Origin: Gammaproteobacteria bacterium
GTDB taxonomy: Bacteria; Pseudomonadota; Gammaproteobacteria; Steroidobacterales; Woeseiaceae
NCBI GenBank assembly: GCA_004357475.1
Contig: SMWE01000171.1
Span: forward strand, 1-36,276
Length of the DNA stretch: 36,276 nucleotides
Direction: 5' to 3'
Position numbers and translations under genes: made by a program. Position 1 is the first letter of the stretch. Each line of letters opens with the position of its first letter. Of this stretch, positions 24,189-29,816 are shown in pieces. The notes beneath the pieces are model-generated. The model was not told where the DNA came from. It saw only the letters and a list, made by a program, of their open reading frames with translations, and ran no database searches.

Positions 24189-25934
24189 ATGGCGTTTCCC
24201 AGGATCATTCGGCCTTTCGCTCCAGTACTTTGCCTAGTTTTAGCTGCCTGCTCGCAGCCAACCGACGAATCTGTTGCGACGACCCAATCGGCGATCGTCA
24301 CCAGGCAAGCGGCGATTGCCATTCCCGATCCCTTTGCGGCGAAAATTGCTGAACAAATACTCAGACAAGGCGGCAACGCGGTGGACGCAGCGGTAGCGAC
24401 AGGATTTGCGCTCGCCGTAACCTATATCGATGCCGGCAACATCGGCGGCGGCGGGTTTATGCTGACCCACATGGATGGCGAATCGGCGTTTCTTGATTAC
24501 CGCGAAAAAGCAGCGCTCGCGGCACATCGTGATATGTATCTCGACCAGCATGGCGAGGTCATTCCGAACGCGAGCCTGATCGGTGCACAGGCCGCGGCGG
24601 TCCCCGGCACAGTCGCGGGAATGTGGAAAGCACACCAGCGCTATGGAATTTTATCCTGGAGAGATGTCGTTCTGCCAGCAGCGGAACTGGCCGAAGACGG
24701 TTTTTATCCTGCCGAAATTCTTGTTAATGATATTCGAGATCACTATGCGCGATTTCGTGATCGCACTAACTTCAGTGAATACTTCGGCGCTATCAGTACT
24801 GATGAACTATTTAAACAGCCCGAGCTCGCTGGTACATTGCGTCGCATCGCCGAGTCCGGTCAGGACGAGTTCTACCGCGGAAAAACTGCAGAGTTGCTTG
24901 TCGAGCAAATGGCCAGGAGCGACGGGCTGATCACGATGGAGGATCTGGCCGCGTACCAAGCGGTGTGGCGGGAGCCACTCCGCGCCGACTGGCGCGACTA
25001 CGAAATACTATCCGCGCCACCGCCGAGCTCCGGCGGTTTTGCGATCGTGCAGATGCTGAAGATGAAGGATTTTCTGAAGCATCGCTTCGAGGGCGTCACA
25101 CATAATTCGCCGCAATACATTCACCTCGTTGCAGAAATGGAAAAACGAGTATTCGCGGATCGCGCCGAGTACATGGGTGATCCGGATTTCGTCGATATCG
25201 ACATCGATGCACTGCTCGCCGAGGATTACATCGCGCGCCGGGCGAAAGAGGTCAATCCGGACACCATCTCAAAACCTGACGCGGTGGTGCCCGGTAACGG
25301 CTCACCGAATACGACCCACTTTTCGATCATCGATCCATGGGGCAACGCAGTATCGAATACCTACACAATCAACTGGGACTACGGCAGCGGTGTCGTCGTC
25401 GCTGGAGCCGGCTTCCTGCTCAACAACGAGATGGATGATTTCAGCGCAAAACCCGGGGTGCCGAACGTCTACGGCGTGGTGGGCAAAACGGCGAATGAAA
25501 TTCAGCCAGGCAAACGGCCGCTGTCATCGATGTCGCCGACGATACTATTAAGAGACGGCACGGTTGAACTGGTGGTTGGCACTCCGGGCGGGTCGACGAT
25601 ATTTACCTCCGTATTTCAAATTATCGTTAACATCCTGGATTTCGGCATGAGTCCGCTCGAAGCTGTTGGCGCAACACGGTTCCATCACCAGTTGCTGCCG
25701 CCGGACCTGATCACGATGAGCATCAGCCGGCCGCTGCCGCAGGAAACCATCTCCGCACTTGGCGATCGCGGTTACCGGGTCGAGCCGCACAGTTGGGAAT
25801 TTGGTGACGTTCAGCTTATCTGGCGTGACCAGGGCGAGCTTCGGCCCGCGGCAGATCCCCGGGATCGGGGCGTCGGCAGGGTCATCCGGATTGAGATGGA
25901 AGCGGGGGCGACCCGGACCATCGCAACGCAATAA
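24189..25934 (+). CDS. ggt: Gamma-glutamyltransferase, putative lipoprotein
   Basis: Lipobox-like LVLAACS; EQILRQGGNAVDAAVATGFALAVTY, GGGFML, catalytic region NTTHFSIIDPWGNAVSNTYTINWDYGSGVVVAGAGFLLNNEMDDFS, RPLSSMSPTILL. Confidence 0.94.
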   Translation: MAFPRIIRPFAPVLCLVLAACSQPTDESVATTQSAIVTRQAAIAIPDPFAAKIAEQILRQGGNAVDAAVATGFALAVTYIDAGNIGGGGFMLTHMDGESAFLDYREKAALAAHRDMYLDQHGEVIPNASLIGAQAAAVPGTVAGMWKAHQRYGILSWRDVVLPAAELAEDGFYPAEILVNDIRDHYARFRDRTNFSEYFGAISTDELFKQPELAGTLRRIAESGQDEFYRGKTAELLVEQMARSDGLITMEDLAAYQAVWREPLRADWRDYEILSAPPPSSGGFAIVQMLKMKDFLKHRFEGVTHNSPQYIHLVAEMEKRVFADRAEYMGDPDFVDIDIDALLAEDYIARRAKEVNPDTISKPDAVVPGNGSPNTTHFSIIDPWGNAVSNTYTINWDYGSGVVVAGAGFLLNNEMDDFSAKPGVPNVYGVVGKTANEIQPGKRPLSSMSPTILLRDGTVELVVGTPGGSTIFTSVFQIIVNILDFGMSPLEAVGATRFHHQLLPPDLITMSISRPLPQETISALGDRGYRVEPHSWEFGDVQLIWRDQGELRPAADPRDRGVGRVIRIEMEAGATRTIATQ

Positions 25935-25936
25935 AA

Positions 25937-25967
25937 AAGGCCCCGACATCGAAATGTGCGGGGCCTT
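25937..25967. terminator. Bidirectional intrinsic terminator between convergent genes
   Basis: aaaaaaggccccgacatcgaaatgtgcggggccttcc: stem AAGGCCCC/GGGGCCTT with a further ACAT/ATGT pairing, between ggt (+) and the repeat protein (-). Confidence 0.85.
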
Positions 25968-25993: not shown

Positions 25994-26503
25994 TTACTGC
26001 GAATGGCGGCGGTTATTGCGACGGCCACGATTATCGTGGCGCTGATCAGCGCGATTGCCCTTTCGGTCCAGGCGGCGATCAATGCGATTACCCTTGTTAT
26101 CAAGGCGCCGGTCCACTCGATCACCCCGATTGTCCAGCCGGCGATTAATACGGTCGCCCTGGTTGTCCAAACGACGATCGATGCGATCACCCTGGTGATC
26201 GAGCCGACGTGAAACACGATCTCTGCCCGCGTCAGATGCACGATCAGATGCGCGATCCAAACGCGCATTGATGCGGTCACCCTTGTTGTCAAGACGGTCG
26301 TCAATACGATCGCCGCGCTTGTCCAGGCGATCGTCGATCCGATCACCCCGTTCGTCGAGTCGATCTTCAATGCGGTCACCGCGATCATCAAGCCTGTCGG
26401 CAATACCATCGATCTCGCCAGCCATAACAGCGCTGCTGACCATCGCTATTCCAGCGATAAGCAGGCCGACTTTGATTGCGTTCCTTGCGTTCCATGTATT
26501 CAT
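25994..26503 (-). CDS. Exported hendecad (11-residue) repeat protein, R/D-rich
   Basis: MNTWNARNAIKVGLLIAGIAMVSSAVMAGEI signal peptide then ~11 repeats such as GDRIDDRLDNK / GDRIDRRLDNQ; GGAG upstream of the ATG at 26503. Confidence 0.85.
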   Translation of the reverse strand: MNTWNARNAIKVGLLIAGIAMVSSAVMAGEIDGIADRLDDRGDRIEDRLDERGDRIDDRLDKRGDRIDDRLDNKGDRINARLDRASDRASDAGRDRVSRRLDHQGDRIDRRLDNQGDRINRRLDNRGDRVDRRLDNKGNRIDRRLDRKGNRADQRHDNRGRRNNRRHSQ

Positions 26504-26662
26504 GTTTCTACTCCGTGAAATCGAATATTTCTCTGCTGTCTGCCTGTTTAACGCGCTGCATCGGCTGCCGTTGACAACGAATCCGGCCAGTTTCTGTTTA
26601 TTGTCAAATTGGCTTGACGGACTCCGATCTGGCAAGCTGAACTGCCCGGACAAGGACGAACA

Positions 26663-27967: not shown

Positions 27968-28575
27968 TGGCGTACGATGAGCAGTTCAAAGTAATACTGT
28001 TCGATCTCGGCGGTGTATTGCTGAATCTGAACGACCCCATCGAAACCTTCGGGTTGAAGATCAGCGAAGTTGAATTCATGGAGCGGTGGCTGCGCTCTCC
28101 CGCCGTTCGCGAATTCGAAAGTGGCGCAATTGATGCTGAGTCTTTCGCCAGACGTATCGTAAGCGATGCTGAATTGCCGTATGACTGGCAGGAATTTCTG
28201 CAGCGATTCGACTCCTGGCCCGATCGACTCTTTGACGAAACAATCGGCGTACTGAACGCAATACCGAACAATATCAAGCTGGCCCTGCTGTCAAATATCA
28301 ACGCGCTGCACTGGAACCGTGACGACATCGCGGGTCAGATCGGCGAACTTTTTGACCACGCATTCCTGTCATTCAAGACGGGTTTGGTAAAACCGGACAG
28401 GGAGGCGTTCGAAATGGTTACGAAAAGGTACAACTGCCGGCAGGACGAGATCCTCTTCTTCGATGACAATCCGCTGAACGTCTCGGCAGCCGCAAACTAT
28501 GGCATCCAGGCCGTGCTGGTTGTGGGAATCGCTGCGGCCAGACAGGCGCTGCGGAAGCGCGGTGTCCTGAATTAG
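27967..28575 (+). CDS. HAD-IA family hydrolase
   Basis: VILFDLGGVLLNL, LALLSNINALHW, LSFKTGLVKPDREAFEMV, ILFFDDNPLNVSAAANYGIQAVLV; ATG at 27967 or 27943. Confidence 0.9.
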   Translation: MAYDEQFKVILFDLGGVLLNLNDPIETFGLKISEVEFMERWLRSPAVREFESGAIDAESFARRIVSDAELPYDWQEFLQRFDSWPDRLFDETIGVLNAIPNNIKLALLSNINALHWNRDDIAGQIGELFDHAFLSFKTGLVKPDREAFEMVTKRYNCRQDEILFFDDNPLNVSAAANYGIQAVLVVGIAAARQALRKRGVLN

Positions 28576-29816
28576 TCTCGCCGTTCCAGCCGTGACTCGA
28601 GTTCCGCAATTTGTTGCTGCTGCAGTTGAACCACACGCGTTAAGACCGCGACAATGTCCATCGCGCTAAGCCCGGTGCGATCCGCACTGGCGACAAGCTG
28701 TGGAACATCCTCGGCAATAAAGCCGACATACTGTTCCTTAATGTCCTGCTTGTAATTGAAAGTCACAGGCTCGAGATTTGCCAGCGCAGCGAGCGCCTCT
28801 TCCGGTGTCAAGTCAACTATATTTTCCTTTTTCTCGCGCGAGGAACTGTCAGTCCAGACACCGCCGGCGCTCACGTATGCGCCGCTCGCCATCTCGATCG
28901 GGTAGAGCGGACGGGACGTGCCGAAACCGACGTTGCCATCCCGGTCGATCGTGATTCGGTCGACCGAGCCCGCACCGATCGTAAGCGTGCTGGCGCGATT
29001 GTGCATGATGTAGCCGGACTCGCCTGACGACTGTGTCATTATCAATCCAGCAACGTGGCCAGTGCGCTCGTGAATCTGAATGTTGCCGTTGACTTCGAGC
29101 CGTTGTTTCGGGTCGGTGGTGCCGATTCCGATATAGTTGCCATCATCGAAGACCAGCGAGTTGCCGCCAATCGTCGCCGAGGTGAATTTCATCAGGAAAT
29201 TTTTCGAACCTTCGATGGTTGCGGCGCCAGGTAAGCCCTGCGGTCCTGGCGGGCCCATTATACCTGGAGGCCCTTGTGGTCCGGCTTCACCGGCTGCGCC
29301 GACGACGACTGGCACGATGGTCTCCCCGGCAACCGGTTCATCGACATCGGTAGTTTCGCCAATCGCTTCTTCTACGGGTTCGACTGCCTCGGAATCTGTT
29401 CCTGCTACGGCTTCTGTTTCAGAAACTATCCCGACTTCCACAATTGCCTCTTCGGCAAACTCCAGTTCCTCGACATCCGCTGCTAAATCCCCGGCCGGTT
29501 CCTCTTCGTCGGCGATGAATTCCCCGGACACCACTTCGGCCACTGGAGCAGGCGCGTGGTCGAGTACGTTGGTCCAGTCAGCGCTGATGAAACCCGTTGC
29601 ATCACCGGCGATTTCAACCTCGTGCCATTCCGGGATCGACCGAACGATCGGTGTTGACTCGCCCTGCTGGAGTCTTCCAACAATTTCGGACTTCGCGTCC
29701 GGGGACAGGCGAATGTTGACGAAGTTCTCAACGGAATCGATTGGTACTACGACCTCTGCTGCAGCCAGCAGTGACAGCATGCATACCGACAGCCCAAGCA
29801 CGAGCACGAGTTTCAT
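28572..29816 (-). CDS. Exported SH3 / acidic / collagen-like / intramolecular chaperone (peptidase S74-type) multidomain protein
   Basis: Signal peptide MKLVLVLGLSVCMLSLLAAA; SH3-like VNIRLSPDAKSEIVGRLQQGESTPIVRSIPEWHEVEI; acidic linker; GEAGPQGPPGIMGPPGPQGLPGA; C-term VWTDSSSREKKENIVDLTPEEALAALANLEPVTFNYK...VGFIAEDVPQLV + coiled coil. Confidence 0.88.
   Translation of the reverse strand: MKLVLVLGLSVCMLSLLAAAEVVVPIDSVENFVNIRLSPDAKSEIVGRLQQGESTPIVRSIPEWHEVEIAGDATGFISADWTNVLDHAPAPVAEVVSGEFIADEEEPAGDLAADVEELEFAEEAIVEVGIVSETEAVAGTDSEAVEPVEEAIGETTDVDEPVAGETIVPVVVGAAGEAGPQGPPGIMGPPGPQGLPGAATIEGSKNFLMKFTSATIGGNSLVFDDGNYIGIGTTDPKQRLEVNGNIQIHERTGHVAGLIMTQSSGESGYIMHNRASTLTIGAGSVDRITIDRDGNVGFGTSRPLYPIEMASGAYVSAGGVWTDSSSREKKENIVDLTPEEALAALANLEPVTFNYKQDIKEQYVGFIAEDVPQLVASADRTGLSAMDIVAVLTRVVQLQQQQIAELESRLERRD

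Follow-up and report, generated by a model that had tools for sequence, protein, structure and literature searches.

A small repeat protein of the exported type, encoded on the minus strand of the 36,276-nucleotide stretch of gammaproteobacterial DNA analyzed here (the window), is very probably a dedicated target of an ECF sigma factor of the NF006550 type, judging from its promoter and gene context. We read the protein as a secreted, probably periplasmic helical hairpin that would act as a charge-based partner in envelope stress, and we regard this reading, taken as a whole, as evenly poised between right and wrong. Its computational basis comprises the repeats, the hinge between them, homology, linkage to a sigma operon outside the Woeseiaceae, and a promoter common to the repeat gene and the sigma operon. 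The promoter and operon are the strongest clue to function and had been missed by the first-pass annotation of this DNA, which knew of no assigned function for such proteins; we likewise found none for this one.

Gene, start site, and selection

The repeat-protein gene (P0001) starts with an ATG at 26503 and ends with a stop codon whose last base is 25994; the earlier coordinates were right and lacked only the strand. The start in the list of open reading frames would be 26722. We prefer the ATG at 26503 because it follows a ribosome binding site, opens a signal-peptide-like N terminus, and has a conserved promoter upstream. The features of the gene and its product are as follows.

26511..26514, minus strand: ribosome binding site GGAG, 8 to 11 nt before the ATG (read directly from the sequence)
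25994..26503, minus strand: repeat-protein coding sequence, 169 amino acids (translation, homologs, dN/dS below 0.3)
26420..26503, minus strand: signal peptide, residues 1 to 28, ending SSAVMA^GE (read directly from the sequence; homologs have a similar hydrophobic N terminus and an AxA-like end)
26249..26419, minus strand: N arm, acidic-to-neutral hendecads, mature residues to about 85, net charge -5 (AlphaFold2 helix 31 to 91)
26225..26248, minus strand: hinge SDRASDAG, residues 86 to 93, a hendecad shortened to 8 residues (homolog conservation; model helix break at 92 to 94)
25997..26224, minus strand: C arm, basic hendecads, residues 94 to 169, net charge +13 (AlphaFold2 helix 95 to 168)
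25932..25965, minus strand: terminator-like hairpin GGCCCCGCACATTTCGATGTCGGGGCC, then a T run, after the repeat gene (read directly from the sequence, by eye)

The gene is under purifying selection, with a dN/dS of 0.25 against its closest homolog and of 0.07 to 0.14 among other homolog pairs. Between repeats within the gene, ~79% of synonymous sites differ as against 25% of nonsynonymous sites, and the repeats therefore appear to be old and kept at the protein level. Near saturation of synonymous sites among the repeats, together with dN/dS values of 0.07 to 0.25 between homologs, argues that this is a real, old, and selected protein. Homology, dN/dS, and the divergence of codons among the repeats rule out coding on the plus strand or a chance open reading frame, and the near-saturated synonymous sites rule out a recent tandem expansion of DNA. 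The N terminus agrees with the earlier description of an exported protein, and cleavage of the signal peptide and a periplasmic location would follow from it. The source genome is a MAG that is 76% complete.

Neighboring genes in the window, which encode an MFS transporter and a gamma-glutamyltransferase, were dropped as the main functional clue because their association in the loci read is with Woeseiaceae-type relatives, while the promoter and sigma linkage reach further. Also in the window, the minus-strand gene at 28572-29816 encodes an exported protein with an SH3-like region, a collagen-like Gly-x-y stretch, and a C-terminal Peptidase_S74 (endosialidase chaperone) domain; this architecture is phage-tail-like and the gene is chromosomal.

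Two arms of hendecads joined by a conserved hinge

The mature protein of 141 amino acids is built from hendecads with the repeat unit GDRIDxRLDxx, and its lag-11 identity is 0.60, compared with a mean of 0.15 and a maximum of 0.27 in 2,000 shuffles. A hydrophobic stripe, a period of 11/3, and helical structure are the marks of a hendecad helix, and all three were found: an I/L stripe with a period of 3.69 residues (11/3 = 3.67) and helices modeled by AlphaFold2 with a pLDDT of ~90. This bears out the hendecad helical repeat originally proposed, for which periodic hydrophobic positions had been set as a test. On a helical wheel drawn with 11/3 residues to the turn, the center of the I/L stripe falls at -17 degrees, that of the acidic residues at +104 to +111 degrees, and that of the basic residues at -108 to -120 degrees, such that the helix is predicted to be three-faced, with a hydrophobic stripe between an acidic and a basic flank.

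The repeats do not form one run. About 11 hendecads had been counted, and clean repeats are indeed present, but they fall into ~5 acidic repeats, an 8-residue hinge (SDRAxxAG), and ~5 basic repeats, with degenerate ends. The polarity from acidic to basic likewise stands, but as a step across the hinge rather than as the gradient first described. The hinge consensus among homologs is (S/A)(D/E)RAxxAG, after which the next repeat has R/H/K/N in place of its first glycine. Its glycine region is present in all distinct homologs examined, and in 83 of 84 the distance to the next repeat glycine is exactly 12 residues. N-arm length among relatives often changes in steps of 11 (35, 46, 57, 68), and in 80/83 homologs the more basic of the two arms is the C arm. 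Position-wise statistics over 366 N-arm and 427 C-arm repeats indicate a framework common to both arms, G-D-R-I-(D/E)-x-R-L-D-x-(K/R). The difference in charge lies mainly at position 6 (-0.37 in the N arm, +0.40 in the C arm) and position 10 (+0.31 and +0.68), both on the back of the helix. Two loci (L026 and L028) have the same hinge with the arm charges reversed, the N arm being neutral to basic and the C arm acidic.

Run with the family alignment, AlphaFold2 places helices at residues 31-91 and 95-168, broken only at the hinge (pLDDT 85, including the signal peptide); the mature form alone is modeled with a pLDDT of 90.3 and a pTM of 0.64. The single polar rod envisaged earlier thus gives way to two arms. 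We consider a hairpin fold probable and the packing of the two helices against each other likely, as judged from the model. A Foldseek search of the PDB returned no significant match, and its nonsignificant alignments were to antiparallel helical hairpins, namely PLCbeta3 (TM 0.73 by query length, 2.6 A, 126 columns) and iSH2. Arm lengths correlate across 83 proteins (Spearman 0.57) and across 40 sister pairs (0.32, P = 0.047). Matched arm lengths had been entertained as proof of a hairpin, but the correlation is moderate, and we keep it as weak support. A simple antiparallel hairpin would, we infer from the charge pattern, put like-charged flanks face to face, which argues for further assembly or for partners.

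Arms of 60 to 75 helical residues, or ~10 nm, on an exported-type protein whose C arm is strongly basic could also suit a spacer or bridge that links the outer membrane or lipopolysaccharide (LPS) to peptidoglycan or other anionic polymers, in line with the bridging role suggested by the first-pass annotation. We think this improbable, given that the protein has no lipobox and that OmpA-like, LysM, and other wall-binding domains were unmatched in Pfam. Moreover, arm length differs about twofold between homologs, which would be odd for a fixed spacer.

A widespread family without a matching profile

A match to the repeat protein was found in 32/60 related genomes, and a single scan of 84,980 species genomes returned 306 loci encoding relatives, mainly in Gammaproteobacteria, 80 of which were kept for analysis. 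Hosts include Woeseiaceae, Microbulbifer, Simiduia, Sedimenticola, Methylophilaceae, Nevskia, and Gallionellaceae, as well as MAGs labeled Desulfobulbaceae, Myxococcota, and others. When the class was sampled evenly, the gene was present in 16 of 185 genomes. The first-pass annotation had called for homologs with conserved repeats in variable number; many were found, and their repeat count does vary. No repeat gene was found in viral contigs or phage records, and plasmids gave only weak matches of the Borrelia Bdr type and one match in Nonomuraea, so phage or plasmid cargo is ruled out. A second copy in the same genome (C68:10989-11336; L002 1408-1878) is divergent from an MFS transporter gene, as is the window copy, and has GTCAAC-N16-CGTT upstream; the two loci are possibly a duplicated gene pair.

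No family model in Pfam or NCBIfam reached its cutoff for the repeat protein, and literature searches on the repeat sequence, DUF3106, and DUF3619 found nothing. Homology and distribution place the protein in a widespread, unnamed bacterial family. With PF01442 (Apolipoprotein) as its best Pfam match (E = 1.9e-8) and ApoA-IV chains matched by phmmer at ~4e-4, the protein might be taken for an amphipathic helix that binds lipid in the manner of apolipoproteins. We consider this very improbable, since the match scores 34.7 bits against a cutoff of 90 and the hydrophobic stripe is narrow, with only two residues per 11. The match arises because an 11-residue period and a charge pattern are common to both. 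The repeat protein shares 11-residue amphipathic helical periodicity and weak sequence similarity with apolipoproteins A1, A4, and E and with Borrelia Bdr proteins, but it falls below the family cutoff, has a three-faced charge pattern and a hinge, and is only 20 to 28% identical to Bdr and similar matches. Membership in the apolipoprotein, phasin, or LEA families was not borne out by the Pfam profile search.

An ECF promoter shared with a sigma operon

Two elements lie upstream of the repeat gene.

26550..26575, minus strand: ECF-type promoter, -35 GTCAAC (26575-26570), 16-bp spacer, -10 CGTT (26553-26550); the sole exact match in the window
26598..26608, minus strand: conserved upstream element TTTGACAATAA, preceding the -35 by 33 bp in the window and by 29 to 33 bp in many Woeseiaceae homologs

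GTCAAC-N16-CGTT occurs upstream of 69 of 83 distinct homologs, as against 0.1 in shuffled sequences. With small variants allowed, the count rises to 74, all with a spacer of exactly 16 bp and mostly 60 to 87 bp before the start; nine upstream regions have no motif even then. Related loci totaling 838,544 bases contain 68 exact sites. In 63/80 loci, such a site is found no more than 150 bp upstream of the repeat gene; among 532 other genes, only 3 are preceded by one, an ECF sigma gene being one of the 3. The same promoter stands upstream of 17/21 sigma operons in relatives, counting that of the source genome, where it lies at C27:9301-9327. A stricter pattern yielded 21 sites in 40 relatives, compared with 3 for a reversed control; of the 21, 7 lie before repeat genes and 5 before sigma operons. 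A scan of the source genome was not significant by itself (9 sites versus 7 in the reversed control), and the evidence for the promoter is thus its position and conservation. GTCAAC-N16-CGTT agrees with the rule published for ECF sigma factors, which pairs AAC at -35 with CGT at -10 and includes autoregulation (PMC8103513). Since the promoter marks repeat genes and sigma operons and is rare before other genes, it points to a dedicated target, and we regard regulation of the repeat gene by an NF006550-type ECF sigma factor as highly probable.

Because the upstream element, or a close variant of it, is also seen in loci whose upstream gene runs in the same direction, it cannot simply be a divergent promoter; it is possibly an activator site. 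In relatives, the strict promoter precedes genes for other exported proteins as well (L154, L157, L163, L165, L167, and L169), which we consider candidate regulon members. L154 is an R/E-rich repeat protein and L169 is basic and of low complexity, while L157 and L165 are related lipoprotein-like proteins and L163 and L167 are related exported proteins.

The repeat gene adjoins an ECF sigma gene in 21 loci, nearly always directly upstream and as the first gene of the operon. Outside the Woeseiaceae, the order is often repeat protein, ECF sigma factor (NF006550), a protein with one transmembrane segment and an acidic tail, and DUF3106. The one-segment protein (~125 amino acids) is weakly DUF3619-like, just under the cutoff, and from its position and topology is likely an anti-sigma factor. 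Its short conserved tail around ELLEDLEFYxWL, putatively periplasmic, has a net charge of -9 to -18 in nearly all loci read. The DUF3106 protein is secreted, passes its family cutoff, and has a net charge of +8 to +36. In the source genome, the sigma operon lies elsewhere, on contig C27 (L129). The sigma factor it encodes shares 50% identity with that of Methylotenera, and both pass NF006550 (237.8 and 217.2 bits; cutoff, 173). This separate operon and the common promoter suggest that the Woeseiaceae repeat gene parted from the sigma operon and retained its promoter. The class sample lends independent support to the link: DUF3106 is present in 14/16 genomes with the repeat gene and in 28/169 others (P = 1e-8), and the two genes are neighbors in 11 of those 14. 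Many genomes have a sigma/DUF3106 module and no repeat gene, and therefore the repeat protein is an accessory rather than an essential part.

Proposed role at the envelope

We propose that the sigma factor, once released, would transcribe its own operon and the repeat gene, and that the exported protein would fold into two charge-striped helices, one arm rich in acidic and the other in basic residues, and serve, through electrostatic forces, as a partner in envelope stress. The basic arm could make contact with acidic targets in the periplasm, among them the conserved tail of the putative anti-sigma factor, beside the basic DUF3106 protein. By net charge alone, the arms and that tail are complementary. 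The charges of the tail and the DUF3106 protein, the bipolar repeat protein, and the logic of CpxP and RseB lead us to favor a periplasmic partner or effector that would act through charge, a role to which we give an even chance. It might serve as a feedback brake or a protective scaffold, like CpxP in the Cpx response and RseB in the sigmaE response.

CpxP forms an antiparallel helical dimer that binds acidic CpxA through its positive surface and is released when salt is high (PMC4160245). Like CpxP and Spy of the Escherichia coli periplasm, the repeat protein is a small, exported, all-helical candidate stress protein, and like CpxP it would be induced by the pathway it possibly modulates, with charge contact to an acidic periplasmic partner as the proposed mode. 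In contrast to both, it is a predicted hendecad hairpin under an ECF sigma factor rather than a two-component system, its feedback is putative, and the LTXXQ (CpxP/Spy) profile in Pfam did not match it at E values up to 10. RseB is encoded in the rpoE operon, and the repeat protein resembles it as an exported protein encoded with an ECF sigma factor and a membrane protein that is likely an anti-sigma factor (PMC8103513). Unlike for RseB, anti-sigma binding is putative and the repeat gene often heads the operon or lies elsewhere; no homology between the two was found. Known NF006550 sigma genes stand with DUF3619-like and DUF3106 genes, and the linked sigma factors and DUF3106 pass their cutoffs here. 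To that operon as defined, the repeat protein adds one more member of the operon or regulon, of which we found no description.

Alternatively, the protein may be an ECF target and yet a pure protectant, a hydrophilin or LEA-like protein that coats envelope components when cells meet osmotic, drying, or membrane stress and does not feed back on sigma. Hydrophilins are defined by a glycine-rich, strongly hydrophilic composition, and the mature protein, with 9.2% Gly and a mean hydropathy of -2.06, resembles them. Its 11-residue period recalls group 3 LEA proteins, and two other apparent regulon members (L154 and L169) are likewise exported, low-complexity, and charged. No LEA model appears, however, among the 13 Pfam matches at E values up to 10, and confidently predicted helices with a precise conserved hinge are not what is expected of a disordered protectant; arms of unlike charge also set the protein apart from group 3 LEA proteins and hydrophilins. 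We judge this alternative somewhat unlikely.

A bolder form of the charge-based reading, which we offer as a long shot, is that the ECF system senses and buffers periplasmic charge: hairpins stacked acidic to basic flank would form an assembly sensitive to salt, and sigma would be tuned when ionic, polycation, or LPS stress freed them from the acidic anti-sigma tail. If true, hendecad repeats would here make up an electrostatic envelope sensor of a new kind. More broadly, a family of 306 loci that reaches no Pfam or NCBIfam model gains a cognate sigma factor, a promoter, a hinge, and likely partners, and the NF006550 and DUF3106 sigma group, for which we found no description, gains a specific target. 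Cultured hosts, Microbulbifer, Simiduia, and Sedimenticola among them, make the stress signal testable, and helices that present a hydrophobic, an acidic, and a basic face offer a clean natural design for studies of charge-driven helix association. In the Woeseiaceae sigma operons, including that of the source genome (L129 1125-1424), a short acidic secreted protein (around EFLEYLGSWEESDEDW) is encoded between the putative anti-sigma factor and DUF3106.
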